Below, in pieces: positions 35,025 through 50,788 of a stretch of 64,000 bases of DNA. Origin of the DNA: Methylotenera sp. (GTDB taxonomy: Bacteria > Pseudomonadota > Gammaproteobacteria > Burkholderiales > Methylophilaceae); assembly GCA_030682715.1 (NCBI GenBank), contig JAUXNQ010000042.1, positions 1-64,000 on the forward strand, read 5' to 3'. How positions within the stretch are numbered: the first letter of the stretch is position 1; each line of letters opens with the position of its first letter. Below the pieces are notes generated by a model. It searched no databases. It was not told the origin of the DNA and was given only the letters and a program-made list of their open reading frames with translations. A program made the translations under genes and the position numbers.

Positions 35025-36968
35025 TCAAAAGTTAGCGCGCAAGCCCGCCGTTACACCCCAAGTAGCATCGCCACCGCTACTGGCGGCATTTGCGCCCACG
35101 GTAAGCGCAACGTTATCGGTAAAGCGGTGGTCAACATCCAGCGTAGTGCGCACCCAGCTTTGATTGACGCTTTGTCCTGGCAGGTTCTGGTTAAGCATAC
35201 CCAAACCTATTACTTGCACTTTTACACCATCGGTATTGGCATCTATGCGATGCACGGCTTCCAAGCCTAAGCGTAAATCGGTATTGGCTGCCAGTGCGGT
35301 TTTGGCAGCGGCACCCAATCGAATATCTTGCGTGCGCCATGTTGCGGCAGAAAAATGTGCAGGAAAGCCACCACCTGTTTCAGTGTAGCTATCCATTTTG
35401 GTTTGCATCCAGGTATAAGCGGCGTAAGGGCTTAAGCTAAAGCGGCCAATCGTTGCGGCATCTTTCCAATCCATCCGTGCACGGGCAGCGTATGCGCGGC
35501 TATCTGGGCTGGCTTTTGAGCTATCTACCGTAGCACCGTTCATATAGTTGCGTGAAATATCCGTATCAAAACGACCATAATAGCCAGTGAAACTGGCTTC
35601 CAGACCATTGGCAAACGCGTTTGCCGCTTCGGCAATCAGGTATTGGCCGTTAAAACGGCTATCGCCACCTAGGCTTAAATCTTGCCTTGACCACGCCTGA
35701 CCAATACCCAAGCCTACACGTGCGGTACTAATGTCTTTACAAGCACCCACCTCAGCAATTTCCATGCGGCTATCAGTTTTGTTGTGGCGTCCGGCATCGA
35801 CTGTTACCCAAGCGCAGCCGCCGTCTTCACTGGTGCGTACCAAGCCGTTATCGAGTATAGATCGGTGGTGCGCGCCAAACATAGTCAAATTAGGCAAAGC
35901 CGCCCCTGCCTGCACACCACGTGCGCCAGCTTCTATTAAAGAGCTGTTGAAGGCGTTAATATCCGTCAACAAACCGGCACCTGCCGGACCGACCCGCGCC
36001 AGCCAGGCTTGATTATTACTGCCATCGCCCACCAGCACGTTACCGTCGGCAGAAACGCCGCTGGCCCTCTCCAAGACCAGCCCTGCAGGCACAGTCACCC
36101 CTGCGCCTGCCAACCAAGCCGCCACCGACTGCATATTAGTCGTTTGCGTCCAGCGGAAGGCCTCGGTATTGCTGCCGTTGTAGCTCTCACCCACCACCAC
36201 GCTGCCATCGGCAGAAACGCCGTAGGCAGAGCTAGACCAGCCCGTGCCGAGAAAGCCCAGACCAGTCATGACGTTGTTTGTCCAGCGAAAGGCCTCGGTA
36301 GAGTTGCCGTTGTGGCTCTCACCCACCACCACGCTGCCATCGGCAGAAACGCCGCGGGCCTCGCTATACGACCCCGTGCCGAGAAAGCCCAGGCCAGTCA
36401 TGCCGTTGTTCGTCCAGCGGAAGGCCTCGGTATTGCTGCCATTGTAGCCACTCCCCACCACCACGCTGCCATCGGCAGAAACGCCGAGGGCCTCGCTAAA
36501 CCACCCCGTGCCGAGAAAGCCCAGACCAGTCATGACGTTGTTTGTCCAGCGGAAGGCCTCGTAATAGGTGCCGTTGTCGGATACCCCCACCACCACGCTG
36601 CCATCGGCAGAAACGCCGTAGGCCTCGCTATACGACCCCGTGCCGAGAAAGCCCAGGCCAGTCATGCCGTTGTTCGTCCAGCGGAAGGCCTCGTAATCGC
36701 TGCCGTTGTAGCTGTTGTTGCTAAACCCCACCACCACGCTGCCATCGGCAGAAACGCCGTAGGCACCGCTATGCGTGCCCGTGCCGAGAAAGCCCAGGCC
36801 AGTGAATGCATCGGCAGCTTGCGCGGGTAGTGCCAGCAGACCTAGCATGATGGCAGTGAGTGGTTTAAGCCGGTATTTGGCTTCCCCACCAGCGTTGGCG
36901 CTAAAGCACCGAATGCTGGCGTGAAGGACAAAGCGCGACGAGGCGCTAACGTGCGTAGGTTGATGCAT
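35025..36968 (-). CDS. HAF-repeat autotransporter
   Basis: A 647-aa type V secreted protein. An extended N-terminal signal (about 1-52, ending ALPAQAADA) is followed by five near-identical 44-47-residue HAF repeats at about 56-280 (GLGFLGTG...GVSADGSVVVG...EAFRWTNN), a sixth degenerate one to about 328, and a C-terminal autotransporter beta-barrel (about 375-647) ending in the usual aromatic residue (GVTAGLRANF). The barrel would carry the repeat passenger to the cell surface. The gene is clearly richer in GC than its neighbours, which suggests transfer. AAGGGA precedes the ATG. An 11-G tract lies 104 bp upstream. Adhesion is a guess. Confidence 0.88.
   Translation of the reverse strand: MHQPTHVSASSRFVLHASIRCFSANAGGEAKYRLKPLTAIMLGLLALPAQAADAFTGLGFLGTGTHSGAYGVSADGSVVVGFSNNSYNGSDYEAFRWTNNGMTGLGFLGTGSYSEAYGVSADGSVVVGVSDNGTYYEAFRWTNNVMTGLGFLGTGWFSEALGVSADGSVVVGSGYNGSNTEAFRWTNNGMTGLGFLGTGSYSEARGVSADGSVVVGESHNGNSTEAFRWTNNVMTGLGFLGTGWSSSAYGVSADGSVVVGESYNGSNTEAFRWTQTTNMQSVAAWLAGAGVTVPAGLVLERASGVSADGNVLVGDGSNNQAWLARVGPAGAGLLTDINAFNSSLIEAGARGVQAGAALPNLTMFGAHHRSILDNGLVRTSEDGGCAWVTVDAGRHNKTDSRMEIAEVGACKDISTARVGLGIGQAWSRQDLSLGGDSRFNGQYLIAEAANAFANGLEASFTGYYGRFDTDISRNYMNGATVDSSKASPDSRAYAARARMDWKDAATIGRFSLSPYAAYTWMQTKMDSYTETGGGFPAHFSAATWRTQDIRLGAAAKTALAANTDLRLGLEAVHRIDANTDGVKVQVIGLGMLNQNLPGQSVNQSWVRTTLDVDHRFTDNVALTVGANAASSGGDATWGVTAGLRANF
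36129..36800 (-). repeat. Tandem 132-bp repeats encoding the HAF passenger
   Basis: Five units, each about 132 bp, contain the nearly invariant block GTGCCGAGAAAGCCCAG (plus-strand reading) and CCACCACGCTGCCATCGGCA. Identity is high enough for recombination to change the copy number. Confidence 0.8.
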
Positions 36969-37299: not shown

Positions 37300-37848
37300 A
37301 TGTCACATTATCGTCGCGCCAACACTGCTGGAGCCACTTACTTCTTCACTGTCGTCACTTATCGCAGGCGTCCGTTCCTGTGCGATGAGGATGTGCGTGA
37401 TGCATTAAAACAAGCGATTAATAAAGTACGCGAAAAACATCCTTTTACAATAGATGCTTGGGTTTTATTACCCGACCACATTCACACCATTTGGACATTG
37501 CCACCTAACGATGCCAACTTTGCACTCCGCTGGCAACTGATTAAACGCTATGTGACCCAAAGTTGCGGGGCACGCTTGCATAACCCGCAATGGATGAATA
37601 CATCCAAAGCAAAGCATCGTGAATCCACATTATGGCAACGCCGTTATTGGGAGCATCAAATTCGAGATGAGTTGGATTATGCAAAACACATGGATTATTT
37701 GCATTACAATCCAGTGAAGCATCAATTGGTAAAACAAGTCAAAGATTGGCCATACTCCACATTTCACCGCTACGTTAAACAAGGCGTTTATGATGAAAAT
37801 TGGGCAATAGAGGTATTATTAGAACAAAGTGATTTTGGCGATGAGTAA
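37300..37848 (+). mobile_element. REP-associated tyrosine transposase (RAYT)
   Basis: A 182-aa Y1 HUH transposase of the IS200/IS605-related REP group. The HUH motif is LLPDHIHTIWTLP (about 61-73) and the catalytic tyrosine lies in DYAKHMDYLHYNPVKH (about 126-141), followed by WPYSTFHRYV. It is bracketed by inverted family A palindromes at 37248-37275 and 37873-37902, the expected layout of a REP-mobilising unit. RAYT genes are single-copy domesticated transposases that act on REP DNA. The frame is intact, so it may be active. Confidence 0.92.
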
Positions 37849-41370: not shown

Positions 41371-41430
41371 GCCTGCTGAACAAATAGCAGGCAAAAAAAA
41401 GACCCCAACCAAGGGGATGAAATTGGGGTC
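41371..41430 (-). terminator. Tandem intrinsic terminators of the candidate small RNA
   Basis: TTGGGGTC (41423-41430) pairs with GACCCCAA (41401-41408) and is followed on the minus strand by eight T. A second perfect hairpin, GCCTGCT...AGCAGGC (41371-41392), then TTTAT, comes right after it. Confidence 0.85.
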
Positions 41431-41515
41431 CAAAAGTGCCTCATCGTCTAAGGCTTCCGCTCAGGGAGGATTGGAGCGGAAAGGTAACTTGCGTTACCTG
41501 TTAACTCTGACTGAG
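41393..41515 (-). ncRNA. Candidate structured small RNA with anti-Shine-Dalgarno loop
   Basis: No ORF lies in 41255-41746. Read on the minus strand, the segment shows in order: AGGTAAC-GCAA-GTTACCT (perfect stem, tetraloop), TTCCGCTC-CAATCCTCCCT-GAGCGGAA (perfect 8-bp stem with a C-rich loop able to pair with AGGGAGG), a GCCT...AGGC stem, and GACCCCAA...TTGGGGTC followed by eight T residues. This is the layout of a trans-acting sRNA with an intrinsic terminator. The 5' end is approximate; no clear promoter was found. The strand is set by the T-run. Confidence 0.62.
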
Positions 41516-41733
41516 CTTTTACAAAATAAGTTCCAAAAATAAATGCTGAAGACTTTCGTTTTTGCACATAGCCTAGTTTGCATTAATCTTGCACCACCCA
41601 TTTATCTTAATCACCATATAAAACCAAGCCATGCTCGACACAAGAACATGCATCTAACATATGTTCAAAAAACATATTCCAAACATATCTAAACGCTAGC
41701 CACATATGAAATATTTGGCTTAAGTAGTCATGC

Positions 41734-41746: not shown

Positions 41747-43978
41747 ATGAATAGCCAACCGCAAACCACGATGCAAGACCCTCTGTTAGCTGGATTAAAT
41801 AATAAACAGCTTGAAGCGGTCACCTTACCCCAACAGTCTGCACTGATTTTAGCTGGTGCTGGCAGTGGTAAAACACGCGTACTTACTGCACGTATTGCAT
41901 GGCTGATCCAAACTGAGCAAGTTTCGCCTACTGGCTTACTGGCTGTGACGTTTACCAACAAAGCGGCAAAAGAGATGCTCACCCGCATAACAGCATCGCT
42001 ACCCATTAACACCCGCGGGATGTGGGTTGGTACTTTCCACGGTTTATGTAATCGCTTATTGCGCGCACACCACCGCGAGGCTGGGCTGCCAGCTAGCTTT
42101 CAGATTTTAGATATTGCTGACCAGCTTTCAGTCATCAAACGCTTAATGAAACTGATGAATGTAGATGATGAGAAGTTTCCACCTAAGCAAGTGCAAAACT
42201 ACATTAACGGCTGTAAAGACGAAGGACTACGCGCGCATGCGGTTGATGCTTACGACCCACACTCACAAAAATTACGTGAGATTTTTGAAGAATACGACAA
42301 ACAATGCCAACGCGATGGCGTAGCAGACTTTGCCGAGCTACTATTGCGTTGCTATGAACTGCTAGAACGTGACACGAACATCCGCCACCATTACCAAAAC
42401 CGTTTTAGATACATTTTGGTGGATGAATTTCAAGACACCAACCGCTTGCAATACCAATGGCTGAAATTACTGGCTGGCCAAAGTAAGGATGGACAGCACA
42501 ACTGCATGTTTGCAGTAGGTGATGATGACCAATCTATTTACGGCTTCCGTGGCGCGCGCGTTGGCAACATGCGTGACTTTGAAACTGACTTTAACGTGCA
42601 AAATATAGTGAAGCTGGAAGAAAACTACCGCTCACATAGCAACATACTAGATGCCGCCAATGCCATTATTTCACACAACAAAAACCGTTTAGGCAAAAAC
42701 CTGTGGACCAGCGCTGGCGCTGGTGAGCCTGTACGCGTATATCAAGCCTACAACGATAACGATGAAGCCCAATTTATTGTCGATGAAATTAAAATGCTGC
42801 ATGCAGAAGGCACTGAGCTAGGCGAAATGGCCCTGCTCTATCGCTCCAACGCGCAATCTCGCGTATTAGAACATGCACTGTTCTCGGCTAACCTACCTTA
42901 TCGCGTTTATGGTGGCTTGCGCTTCTTTGAACGTGCAGAAATCAAACACGCGCTTGCTTATATGCGCCTGATTGCCAATGCCAATGACGACACGGCATTA
43001 TTGCGCGTGATTAACTTCCCAGCACGCGGCATCGGTGCACGCAGCTTAGAACAGCTACAGGAGGCCGCTCGCGCGGAAAATTGCAGTCTATGGCAAGCCG
43101 CCATTAATAAAGTGGGGCATGGCAAAGTTGGCGGTAAAGGGATTGATGGTTTTGTTGCACTGATTAGGCAAATGGTAGATGAAGCTTATGGCATTAGCCT
43201 CTCTGAACTAGCAGAGCTCGCCACCACGCTTTCTGGCCTGAAGGCGCATTACCAGAATGAAAAAGAAGGTGAAGACCGCATTGCCAACTTGGAAGAACTG
43301 GTCACGGCGGCAGTTGCCTTTACTAATCAAGATTTTGGCAACCATAGCAACGCAGATGGTGAAACCGAACAAGACCTACTCACGCAGTTTTTAAGTCACG
43401 CAAGCTTAGAAGCAGGTGAACATCAAGCCGATGTCGGGCGCGAGGCTTTACAGCTAATGACAGTACACGCCTCTAAAGGCCTAGAGTTTAAAGTAGTGTT
43501 TATTAGCGGCCTGGAAGAAGGTCTGTGCCCGCACGAGCAAAGCACATACGAAGCAAACGGTTTAGAGGAAGAACGTCGCTTAATGTACGTAGCGGTAACG
43601 CGTGCCAGGCAGCGCTTATATCTCAGCCATGCGCAAAGCCGCATGTTGCATGGGCAAGTACGCTATGGCATTCCATCCCGCTTTTTGGATGAAATTCCAG
43701 AGGAGCTACTCAAACGCTTAAATAGCAAACCTGTCGCTAAATCTGGCTATGGTAGAGACTACAGCGAGCTACCTGCCATGATGAGCAAACAGCAAAGCAG
43801 CACGCAAAAGAGTGCAATGCCGTGGAAAATCGGCCAGCAAGTGGCGCATAGTAAATTTGGGAATGGCGTTGTGGTGAGCTACGAGGGCAACGCGAACGAC
43901 ATGCGTGTACAGGTGAATTTTGGTCGCGAAGGCTTAAAATGGCTCGCGCTGGAATTTGCAAAACTTACTGCGATTTAA
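41747..43978 (+). CDS. uvrD: DNA helicase II UvrD
   Basis: A 743-aa superfamily 1A 3'-5' helicase of nucleotide-excision and mismatch repair. Walker A is GAGSGKTR (37-44), motif II VDEFQDTN, motif III GDDDQSIYGFRGA, motif V VHASKGLEFKVVF and motif VI YVAVTRARQRLYL. The C-terminal Tudor-like tail (KIGQQVAHSKFGNGVVVSYEG) binds RNA polymerase in homologues. Length fits UvrD (720 aa) rather than Rep. It is monocistronic, preceded by the candidate sRNA on the other strand. Confidence 0.95.
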   Translation: MNSQPQTTMQDPLLAGLNNKQLEAVTLPQQSALILAGAGSGKTRVLTARIAWLIQTEQVSPTGLLAVTFTNKAAKEMLTRITASLPINTRGMWVGTFHGLCNRLLRAHHREAGLPASFQILDIADQLSVIKRLMKLMNVDDEKFPPKQVQNYINGCKDEGLRAHAVDAYDPHSQKLREIFEEYDKQCQRDGVADFAELLLRCYELLERDTNIRHHYQNRFRYILVDEFQDTNRLQYQWLKLLAGQSKDGQHNCMFAVGDDDQSIYGFRGARVGNMRDFETDFNVQNIVKLEENYRSHSNILDAANAIISHNKNRLGKNLWTSAGAGEPVRVYQAYNDNDEAQFIVDEIKMLHAEGTELGEMALLYRSNAQSRVLEHALFSANLPYRVYGGLRFFERAEIKHALAYMRLIANANDDTALLRVINFPARGIGARSLEQLQEAARAENCSLWQAAINKVGHGKVGGKGIDGFVALIRQMVDEAYGISLSELAELATTLSGLKAHYQNEKEGEDRIANLEELVTAAVAFTNQDFGNHSNADGETEQDLLTQFLSHASLEAGEHQADVGREALQLMTVHASKGLEFKVVFISGLEEGLCPHEQSTYEANGLEEERRLMYVAVTRARQRLYLSHAQSRMLHGQVRYGIPSRFLDEIPEELLKRLNSKPVAKSGYGRDYSELPAMMSKQQSSTQKSAMPWKIGQQVAHSKFGNGVVVSYEGNANDMRVQVNFGREGLKWLALEFAKLTAI

Positions 43979-47923: not shown

Positions 47924-50788
47924 ATGAAAACTTTATTATTAGTGGATGGCTCATCTTATTTATATCGCGCATTCCACGCCATGCCTGACCTAAGAAACCG
48001 CCAAAACGAACCAACTGGCGCGATTCAAGGCGTATTGAACATGCTACGCCGCTTGCATAAAGATTACCCTAGCGATTATAGCGCGTGTGTTTTTGATGCC
48101 AAAGGCAAAACATTTCGCGATGACATTTATGCCGAATATAAAGCCAACCGTGCTGCCATGCCAGATGATCTGCGTCCTCAAATAGAGCCATTACATGAAG
48201 CCATTAAAGCCATGGGCTGGCCGCTACTCATGATAGAAGGCGTAGAGGCAGACGATGTGATTGGCGCACTGGCTAAACAGGCCGAGCGTGAAGGCGTGCG
48301 CGTCATTATTTCCACTGGCGATAAAGATATCACGCAACTAGTTAACGAACACATCACTGTCATCAACACCATGCGCGATGCTTTCCGCAAGGTGGACGAT
48401 GTGCTCGACATTGCAGGCGTAGAAAATAAATTTGGCGTGCCACCAAGCTTGATGGTGGATTACCTAGTGCTAGTGGGCGACACCTCAGACAACGTGCCTG
48501 GCGTGGAAAAAGTCGGCCCAAAAACTGCCGTAAAATGGCTAAAAGAATATGGCTCGCTCGATAACATTGTTGCCAATGCAGAAAATATAAAAGGCGTTGT
48601 GGGCGAGAACTTACGCAAAGCGCTACCTTGGCTGCCTACTGCACGCGAGCTAATTACCATTCGCTGTGACATTGGCATTCAGGAAAATCTAAGCGACCTT
48701 GCACCGCAACCGCAGAATAAAACAAAACTGGCAGAATTATTTGACCGCTTTGAGTTTAGAACTTGGCGCCGCGAATTGGACAATATGCCAGATAGCGCAC
48801 CATACAGCGCTGTACCAATACAAACAGAAGGTACGCCGCAATCAGACTTATTCGGCGGTGCAGTTTCCGTTCGCCCTGAACCCTTCGACCAAGCTCAGGA
48901 GAGCCCCATCGCAGGGCAAATCAGTGCTTCGTCAAGCTCACCACGAGCGAATGTGTTTGAACCGACTTATCAAACCATCACCACCCGCAACTACGAAACC
49001 ATTTTAGCCAATGCGCAATTAGATGACTGGCTCAATAAAATAAGCACTGCAGCATTGGTTTGCTTTGATACAGAAACCACGTCACTTGACCCGATGACCG
49101 CAAAAATCGTGGGCATGTCATTTAGCGTAGCGGCTGGCAGTGCCGCGTACCTGCCATTAAAGCATGATTACTTTGATGCGCCATCCCAACTGAATTTTGA
49201 TGAGACTTTGGCTAAAGTTAAACCCATACTAGAGAACCCTGCCATCAAAAAAGTGGGGCAAAACCTGAAATATGATCAGCATGTATTAGCCAACCACAAG
49301 ATACAGCTTAACGGCATTGCGCATGACACGCTGTTGCAATCCTATGTGTTTGAATCCCATAAAACGCATGGCATGGATGCCCTGAGCGAGCGACATTTAG
49401 GCGTTAAAACCATCACGTTTGAAGAGGTGGCTGGCAAAGGTGCAAAACAAGTAAGCTTTAATCAAGTAACAGTTGAAGTTGCCGCAGAATACGCCGCCGA
49501 AGATGCTGACATTACTCTGCAACTACACGAAGCAATGTATCCGCAAGTAGCGGCTGACGCAAAGCTTGACTATATTTACAGCCAGATTGAATTGCCAGTT
49601 TCAAACATTCTGTTCACCATCGAGCGCAATGGCGTGCTGATAGACGCCAACATGCTCAATGCGCAAAGCAATGAAATTGGCCTAAAATTAGTCGCACTAG
49701 AGAACCAAGCCTACGAACTTGCAGGGCAACCATTCAACCTAGGTTCACCAAAACAGCTACAAGAAATCTTATTCGGCAAACTTGGAATTAAGCCGCTGAA
49801 AAAAACACCAAGCGGTACACCATCTACGGATGAAGACGTATTGCAAGAACTGGCTTTGGATTACCCTCTGCCAAAAGTGCTATTGGAGTATCGCGGTTTA
49901 GCCAAGCTTAAATCCACCTATTCTGACAAACTTCCACGCATGATTAACCCCAGCACAGGTCGCGTACATACCAGCTACAATCAAGCCGTAGCCATTACAG
50001 GCAGGCTCGCCAGCTCAGACCCTAATTTACAAAACATCCCAGTACGTACACAAGAGGGCCGCCGTATTCGTGAGGCGTTTATCGCCCCACAAGGCAGCCA
50101 TATTGTTTCTGCCGACTACTCGCAAATTGAACTGCGCATCATGGCGCATCTATCGCAAGATGAAGGCATGCTCAACGCCTTTGCCAACAACGAAGATATT
50201 CACCGCGCCACTGCCGCTGAGATTTTTGGGGTGGAACGTGAGCAAGTAGATAACGAACAACGCCGTTATGCCAAAGTCATCAACTTTGGTTTGATTTATG
50301 GCATGAGCGCATTTGGATTAGCGCAAAACTTAAATATCGAGCGTAGCGCCGCACAAAGCTATATCGAGCGTTACTTTGCGCGCTACCCTGGTGTGCGCCA
50401 ATACATGCAAGAAACGCGCGAGATTGCCAAACAAAATGGCTATGTTGAAACCTATTTTGGACGCAGACTATGGGTGCCAGAAATCAATAGTAGCAATGGC
50501 ATGCGCAGAGCTGGTGCTGAACGTGCAGCCATTAATGCACCTATGCAAGGCACCGCCGCTGACTTGATTAAACTCGCGATGATTGCCGTGCAGAATTGGC
50601 TAACTACAGAAAAATTAAACACTAAACTCATCATGCAAGTACACGATGAACTGGTGCTGGAAGTGCCAGATAATGAACTTGCACTAGTGAAGGAAAAACT
50701 ACCAGAGCTTATGCAAAATGTCGCTAAGTTAGATGTACCGCTATTAGCTGAAGTTGGCGTGGGTAGCAATTGGGAAAGTGCTCATTAA
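47924..50788 (+). CDS. polA: DNA polymerase I
   Basis: A 954-aa repair polymerase. Domains: 5' nuclease (1-290), linker, 3'-5' exonuclease with the intact DxE motif CFDTETTSLDP (about 381-391), and polymerase with motif A VSADYSQIELRIM (about 729), motif B RRYAKVINFGLIYGMS (about 785) and motif C VHDEL (about 907). It is longer than E. coli Pol I (928 aa). Part of the excess is a linker (about 314-347, VSVRPEPFDQAQE...) that reads as a translated REP-like element, described separately. The cinA-like gene follows 24 bp downstream. Confidence 0.96.
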   Translation: MKTLLLVDGSSYLYRAFHAMPDLRNRQNEPTGAIQGVLNMLRRLHKDYPSDYSACVFDAKGKTFRDDIYAEYKANRAAMPDDLRPQIEPLHEAIKAMGWPLLMIEGVEADDVIGALAKQAEREGVRVIISTGDKDITQLVNEHITVINTMRDAFRKVDDVLDIAGVENKFGVPPSLMVDYLVLVGDTSDNVPGVEKVGPKTAVKWLKEYGSLDNIVANAENIKGVVGENLRKALPWLPTARELITIRCDIGIQENLSDLAPQPQNKTKLAELFDRFEFRTWRRELDNMPDSAPYSAVPIQTEGTPQSDLFGGAVSVRPEPFDQAQESPIAGQISASSSSPRANVFEPTYQTITTRNYETILANAQLDDWLNKISTAALVCFDTETTSLDPMTAKIVGMSFSVAAGSAAYLPLKHDYFDAPSQLNFDETLAKVKPILENPAIKKVGQNLKYDQHVLANHKIQLNGIAHDTLLQSYVFESHKTHGMDALSERHLGVKTITFEEVAGKGAKQVSFNQVTVEVAAEYAAEDADITLQLHEAMYPQVAADAKLDYIYSQIELPVSNILFTIERNGVLIDANMLNAQSNEIGLKLVALENQAYELAGQPFNLGSPKQLQEILFGKLGIKPLKKTPSGTPSTDEDVLQELALDYPLPKVLLEYRGLAKLKSTYSDKLPRMINPSTGRVHTSYNQAVAITGRLASSDPNLQNIPVRTQEGRRIREAFIAPQGSHIVSADYSQIELRIMAHLSQDEGMLNAFANNEDIHRATAAEIFGVEREQVDNEQRRYAKVINFGLIYGMSAFGLAQNLNIERSAAQSYIERYFARYPGVRQYMQETREIAKQNGYVETYFGRRLWVPEINSSNGMRRAGAERAAINAPMQGTAADLIKLAMIAVQNWLTTEKLNTKLIMQVHDELVLEVPDNELALVKEKLPELMQNVAKLDVPLLAEVGVGSNWESAH
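48863..48957. repeat. REP-like palindrome inside the polA coding sequence
   Basis: TTTCCGTTCGCCCTGAACC, TCGACCAAGCTCAGGAGAG and GCTTCGTCAAGCTCACCACG-AGCG resemble the common bacterial REP that reads CCGTTCGCCCTGAGC...GCTTCGACAAGCTCA. The ends are inverted (CGTTCGC against GAGCGAA). The reading frame of polA is kept. Confidence 0.65.

Follow-up and report, generated by a model that had tools for sequence, protein, structure and literature searches.

A putative sigma-E-controlled small RNA of the anti-hemB family (RF02837) with an exposed anti-Shine-Dalgarno loop in Methylotenera

Background

Anti-hemB (Rfam RF02837), also known as Burkholderia RNA 7, is represented in Burkholderia cenocepacia by ncS04, a 105-nt transcript documented by dRNA-seq, RACE and Northern analysis, for which Hfq binding has been cited (PMC5688073). 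In the same study brief stresses, including SDS, caused no significant induction of ncS04, and its level was not significantly altered in biofilms, under starvation or at low iron (PMC5688073). No function for RF02837 was found in the open-licence literature, and its name is misleading; neither a sigma-E promoter nor a polA-engB lineage for this family was found there, and a prior description elsewhere is possible.

Several other proteobacterial small RNAs (sRNAs) resemble it in loop or locus. sX13 of Xanthomonas, of approximately 115 nt, is encoded downstream of polA and carries C-rich loops whose pairing partners are G-rich motifs close to start codons (PMC3771888). In Neisseria, the anti-Shine-Dalgarno (anti-SD) loops of NmsRA/B repress mRNAs (PMC5362039); in both systems the C-rich stretches act by pairing with mRNAs and hindering ribosome binding (PMC3771888, PMC5362039). 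The ersA gene lies in the polA-engB gap of P. aeruginosa (PMC8575079), and ErsA of Pseudomonas is strictly sigma-22-dependent (PMC7565897).

The RNA described here is encoded on the minus strand of a Methylotenera sp. contig (GCA_030682715.1, JAUXNQ010000042.1), positions 1 to 64,000 of which, the whole stretch analysed, are referred to as the window. Judged from model matches and predicted fold, it is a real small regulatory RNA and a full-length member of RF02837. Computational analysis established its family, its structure, the invariance of its loop, its promoter motif, its single-copy state and its synteny.

Results and discussion

Transcript and predicted structure

The minus strand at 41393–41499 specifies a four-stem RNA with a terminator at its end and an exposed UCCUCCCU loop. 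The predicted transcript (41499–41393, about 107 nt) is covered by matches to RF02837 and to R1, a four-stem covariance model built from other families only, the window's own family having been left out. Its start most likely lies near 41499, where it was placed because of the position of a sigma-E-type promoter. The 5' hairpin (AGGUAAC-GCAA-GUUACCU, 7 bp; 41482–41499) is followed by the anti-SD hairpin (UUCCGCUC-CAAUCCUCCCU-GAGCGGAA; 41455–41481), in which a perfect 8-bp stem, whose changes stay paired in relatives, carries the 11-nt loop CAAUCCUCCCU. Within this loop, UCCUCCCU (41463–41470) is the complement of the Shine-Dalgarno-like AGGGAGGA; its bases are 96% unpaired in the fold ensemble and its CUCCCU core is invariant. 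A third hairpin (GCCUUA-GACGA-UGAGGC, 6 bp; 41438–41454) precedes the intrinsic terminator, an 11-bp hairpin with the loop UCAUCCCCUU (41400–41431) and a T8 run (41400–41393). The terminator loop holds a second C-rich motif, UCCCCUU (41411–41417), 93% unpaired in the ensemble.

The folding energy was –48.3 kcal/mol, compared with a mean of –30.9 for shuffled sequences (z = –5.3), and none of 200 shuffles folded as low. No minus-strand open reading frame of at least 40 aa overlaps the RNA, and the overlapping frames of 25–39 aa extend beyond its ends. The locus had earlier been described, in a preliminary description, as a candidate trans-acting sRNA without an ORF, its strand fixed as minus by a strong T8 terminator, with four ordered stems, a perfect 8-bp stem and an SD-complementary loop; the main structural elements were all recovered. 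The interval then given (41371–41515) was shifted: 41500–41515 is promoter, and 41371–41392 is a separate hairpin beyond the T-run. This hairpin, GCCTGCTATTTGTTCAGCAGGC, lies immediately 3' of the T-run on the same strand, and its first arm also occurs in the nearest relatives; it is perhaps a tandem back-up terminator.

Family membership

At the gathering threshold no Rfam family matched anywhere in the window. A low-threshold search, of the kind proposed with the preliminary description, matched RF02837 at 41393–41482 over all model positions (1–81 of 81; 47.5 bits, E = 4.3e-10), 2 bits below the curators' gathering score of 49.5 bits. The other low-threshold matches of the window (snoR10, STnc240, suhB and others) had E-values of 0.25 or worse and were taken as chance. 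The element order of RF02837, namely the loop UCCUCCCUGAGCGG, stem, third hairpin and terminator, is present in the window copy. R1 independently matched 41395–41507 (63.7 bits, E = 4e-14), and found 29 loci of the same genus at E = 5e-11 or better.

Within the order Burkholderiales, RF02837 matched 305 of 399 genomes, representing 131 of 165 genera; 54 of these genomes match at E ≤ 0.001 yet fall below the gathering score (305 vs 251). Named homologs include Burkholderia ambifaria, Cupriavidus, Nitrosospira, Pandoraea and the gammaproteobacterium Ectothiorhodospira mobilis, together with Methylovorus mays (67.5 bits) and the Methylophilales isolate LSUCC0135 (66.0 bits), the last two above the cut-off. 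The sRNA is single-copy in the window genome. Six streamlined genomes of about 1.3 Mb from the window's own family have kept RpoE and contain no detectable copy of the sRNA.

Copy number varies elsewhere. Genomes of one family (f25: G270, G297, G389 and others; loci L182–L206) contain up to six dispersed paralogs each, mostly keeping CCUCCCUGA, and in some of these the CCCCU motif is found in the third hairpin instead of the terminator loop. Nitrosospira briensis (L161, 675–889) has two tandem copies, the second some 30 bp after the first; it is possibly co-transcribed with the first, since it has no sigma-E-type promoter of its own.

Conservation and covariation

Loss of the stems and loop in close relatives had been named as evidence that would speak against the sRNA. 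BLASTN found homologs in 34 of 36 genomes of the same genus, the loop is nearly invariant, and the stems covary across many families. CUCCCUG is invariant in an alignment of 61 sequences, and the loop plus its 3' stem arm show near-total invariance. An exposed, conserved loop complementary to the SD sequence, the hallmark sought for an anti-SD trans-acting sRNA, is thus present in the RNA at 41393–41499.

Covariation was counted on an alignment (A2) that excluded the window's genus, since the MAFFT alignment (A1), owing to a 2-nt difference in loop length, places the first stem of that genus out of register with that of the other sequences. For 26 sequences taken from other families, pairing in the four helices reached 96.4% (89.5% in shuffles), with double changes at 17 of 30 pairs compared with 8.4 in column shuffles; sliding the partners by 1–3 columns lowered pairing to 27–56%. 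The 81-position Rfam model has no counterpart of the 5' hairpin, all seven pairs of which covary in other families. Across 82 loci this hairpin stays in place, and its 5' arm takes 57 different sequences; a simple stem finder missed roughly twelve loci of the window's genus in which the hairpin is longer. The C-rich terminator loop occurs in 29/29 same-genus, 25/27 other Burkholderiales and 26/27 other gammaproteobacterial homologs, and in 0/3 Burkholderia-like ones. This distribution suggests that it may be a second pairing site hidden by the Burkholderia-derived Rfam consensus.

Promoter

Upstream of the RNA lies a sigma-E (RpoE)-type promoter motif, GGAACTT-N17-TCAGA (41506–41534, minus strand; –35 at 41534–41528, –10 TCAGA at 41510–41506), the –35 element being that of E. 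coli sigma-E (quoted in PMC2893595). What is looked for in sRNAs of a sigma-E regulon, a –35 GGAACTT and a –10 TCNNA at 16–17 nt just upstream, is therefore present as a motif. The sRNA locus is the sole place in the window genome with the strict pattern, and with one match, against five for a reversed control, this motif is not enriched elsewhere.

The family-wide motif was defined as GAAC[TC]-N15-19-TC[TA][TGA]A, with expectations from dinucleotide shuffles. It was complete upstream of 52 of 82 homologous loci (0.4 expected), and its –35 part alone was found at 74 of the 82 (13.5 expected); because the motif was picked after the sequences had been inspected and the loci are related, these shuffle figures are not probabilities and the expectation of 0.4 overstates the contrast. 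The motif lies mostly 59–76 nt from CUCCCU. In a second set, from the class-level search, it was present at 15 of 30 loci (0.13 expected), the window copy being one of the 30.

The window genome encodes RpoE (314 bits; cut-off 236). Upstream of its rpoE is GGAACTT-N17-TCATT, and similar GAACT[TA]...GTC motifs precede rpoE in several relatives, which fits the expectation for an autoregulated sigma-E. A second RpoE-like sigma factor (G000:C6:17379–17939) scores 234 bits, just below the cut-off. Burkholderia-like homologs, and the homolog in a genome with no RpoE above the cut-off (G254), have sigma-70-like –10 boxes instead, and another genome (G085) has RpoE and no sigma-E-type promoter before its sRNA. 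These exceptions are informative but not clean. Taken together, the promoter data, drawn from about 100 relatives, point strongly to RpoE control of the window sRNA.

Genomic context

As had been proposed, the RNA lies between a LigB/ygiD-like dioxygenase gene (minus strand, codirectional, about 140 bp downstream of the T-run) and uvrD (41747–43978, plus strand). Throughout the window's genus it is divergent from uvrD, as it also is in Methylovorus and LSUCC0135, the two named Methylophilales; this agrees with the choice of Methylophilaceae as the comparison group in the preliminary description. The ygiD homolog was found downstream of the sRNA at six loci only and is not a conserved neighbour. 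In most other Burkholderiales the sRNA is located between hemB and engB, divergent from hemB and 100–200 bp away from it, hence the name of the family.

Of 370 genomes of the class searched with R1, 122 gave matches, almost all outside Burkholderiales. Among the best 27 non-Burkholderiales homologs, 24 had PolA, EngB or cytochrome c4 encoded directly adjacent, and the engB beside the named non-Burkholderiales homolog was confirmed as TIGR03598. In the window polA (47924–50788, plus strand), the neighbour of the family in other gammaproteobacteria, lies 6.4 kb from the sRNA; no EngB was found in the 64 kb, and the window copy is not in a polA-engB gap. In each of two genomes, G587 (L273) and G680 (L278), the interval between polA and engB carries four or more tandem sRNA copies. 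Elsewhere in the window, the gene for an autotransporter beta-domain protein whose internal repeats are nearly identical (35025–36968, minus strand) lies beside a small IS200-like Y1 transposase gene (37300–37848, plus strand).

Targets

In the window genome an exact AGGGAGG before an ATG occurs three times, once inside an opposite-strand gene, and none of these matches is persuasive. Porin_4 had no match in this genome; the Porin_4 starts of relatives have AGGAG as their SD and form unremarkable duplexes. Duplex scans of porin starts in relatives and of window genes gave no decisive target. We infer that the window sRNA acts in trans by anti-SD repression.

Proposed function and alternatives

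The reading we prefer, with a probability of roughly three in four, is that of a stand-alone, RpoE-induced, Hfq-associated, trans-acting anti-hemB sRNA which represses translation by pairing with Shine-Dalgarno regions. RNA polymerase carrying the envelope-stress sigma factor RpoE would start the sRNA near 41499 and stop at the T8 terminator. Hairpins would protect both ends of the structured RNA, and Hfq, also in Methylotenera, would hold it through its U-tail. The UCCUCCCU and UCCCCUU loops could then base-pair with the G-rich Shine-Dalgarno regions of a number of mRNAs and keep these from being translated, much as ErsA blocks ribosome-binding sites in Pseudomonas, so that during envelope stress the cell would make less of some products, probably ones with envelope or transport functions. 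Counting against this are the missed gathering score, the strict motif being unenriched genome-wide, the Burkholderia-like homologs without the motif, the uninduced ncS04, the G085 exception and the want of a convincing target.

The same anti-SD sRNA could be a housekeeping or growth-phase regulator, with GGAACTT read by another ECF sigma factor or contributing weakly. The sigma-70-like –10 boxes of the Burkholderia-like and some f49 homologs, the behaviour of ncS04 in biofilm, starvation and low iron (PMC5688073), and the further ECF sigma factors of the window genome, including the one at 234 bits on the RpoE model, would all be in keeping with such a role. We regard it as unlikely in view of the identity with the E. 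coli sigma-E –35 element (quoted in PMC2893595), the recurrence of the motif before rpoE, and the strict sigma-22 dependence of ErsA at the homologous locus (PMC7565897). A different mode of action, in which the sRNA binds a protein or the ribosome rather than mRNAs, for instance as a global competitor of 16S rRNA for SD sequences, appears improbable: sX13, NmsR and ErsA, which also have C-rich loops or stretches, pair directly with mRNAs (PMC3771888, PMC5362039, PMC8575079). It draws on the resemblance of the loop to the 16S anti-SD CCUCC, and on the near-total invariance of the loop and 3' stem arm, which exceeds the strict need of pairing with varied targets.

Two further roles are hardly tenable. 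That the RNA is a leader or attenuator of the ygiD-like gene, as the codirectional position of that gene might imply, is largely refuted by the strong terminator between the two, by loci which keep the sRNA without a downstream ygiD homolog, this lack of conservation arguing against a leader, and by other families, in which the sRNA faces engB, hemB or polA. Antisense regulation of hemB, which the name of the family would imply, is very unlikely: the divergent arrangement close to hemB in most other Burkholderiales families would suit it, but the hemB of the window genome is on another contig, and its pairing with the sRNA (–42.9; shuffled mean –47.9) is no better than that of shuffled sequences. 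The name reflects position. The interpretation given in the preliminary description holds once its ends are corrected; overlooked there were anti-hemB membership, the sigma-E-type promoter and the second C-rich loop in the terminator.

Comparison with known small RNAs

The window RNA shares with RF02837 and ncS04 the anti-SD hairpin, third hairpin and terminator in the same order, a common CCUCCCUGAG loop, and nearly the same length (107 nt predicted, 105 nt for ncS04). It differs in an anti-SD loop 2 nt longer, a sigma-E-type promoter where the ncS04 type has a sigma-70-like one, the second C-rich loop in the terminator, and a location adjoining uvrD, not hemB. Beyond existing annotation are the sigma-E-type promoter, the covarying 5' hairpin, the second C-rich terminator loop and the polA-engB location outside Burkholderiales.

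Compared by locus and promoter, ErsA is likewise trans-acting and dependent on a sigma-E-type factor, and the polA-engB gap also harbours homologs of the window RNA; the window copy itself adjoins uvrD, outside that gap. The sigma-E/sigma-22-type promoter expected of an ErsA-type RNA is present at the window copy as a motif. The family resembles sX13 (RF02232) in its polA-side locus, size and C-rich loops, and differs in that sX13 is reported as Hfq-independent. The RF02232 covariance model had no match in the window genome, and genuine Xanthomonadaceae sX13 loci score weakly with R1 (13–16 bits); three gammaproteobacterial loci match both RF02837 and RF02232, and in G506, G587 and G640 the matches to sX13 and to anti-hemB/R1 coincide in position.

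Other RNAs are more distant. NmsRA/B are likened to the window RNA by description, through their anti-SD loops; their anti-SD is partly in a linker and their locus lies between dsbB and lrp. RF02278 (toxic small RNA/double-hairpin RNA) and Bordetella S17 are betaproteobacterial sRNAs with CU-rich anti-RBS stretches, but are short two-hairpin or processed RNAs, S17 having a sigma-70-type promoter, and RF02278 did not match the window at either the gathering or the low threshold. Spot 42 (spf) of E. coli occupies the same polA-yihA(engB) gap as many homologs, lacks a CCUCCC loop and gave no match with R1 up to E = 10.

From these comparisons anti-hemB and sX13 are probably one lineage, to which ErsA likely belongs; the inclusion of Spot 42 is unproven. 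On balance we favour an ancient lineage of anti-hemB, sX13 and probably ErsA which may have been born in the polA-engB gap of a gamma-/betaproteobacterial ancestor and tied early to sigma-E as the part of the envelope stress response that blocks SD sequences; the RNA studied here would be a copy moved beside uvrD in Methylophilaceae. With a sigma-E-type promoter common to dozens of families, the 5' hairpin, the second loop and the polA-engB location, an orphan Rfam entry becomes a testable hypothesis: a betaproteobacterial sigma-E-controlled sRNA, the counterpart to enterobacterial MicA/RybB and Pseudomonas ErsA. It would connect sRNAs so far presented as unrelated to each other and confined to particular lineages, sX13 for example, which is reported to be exclusive to Xanthomonadaceae.
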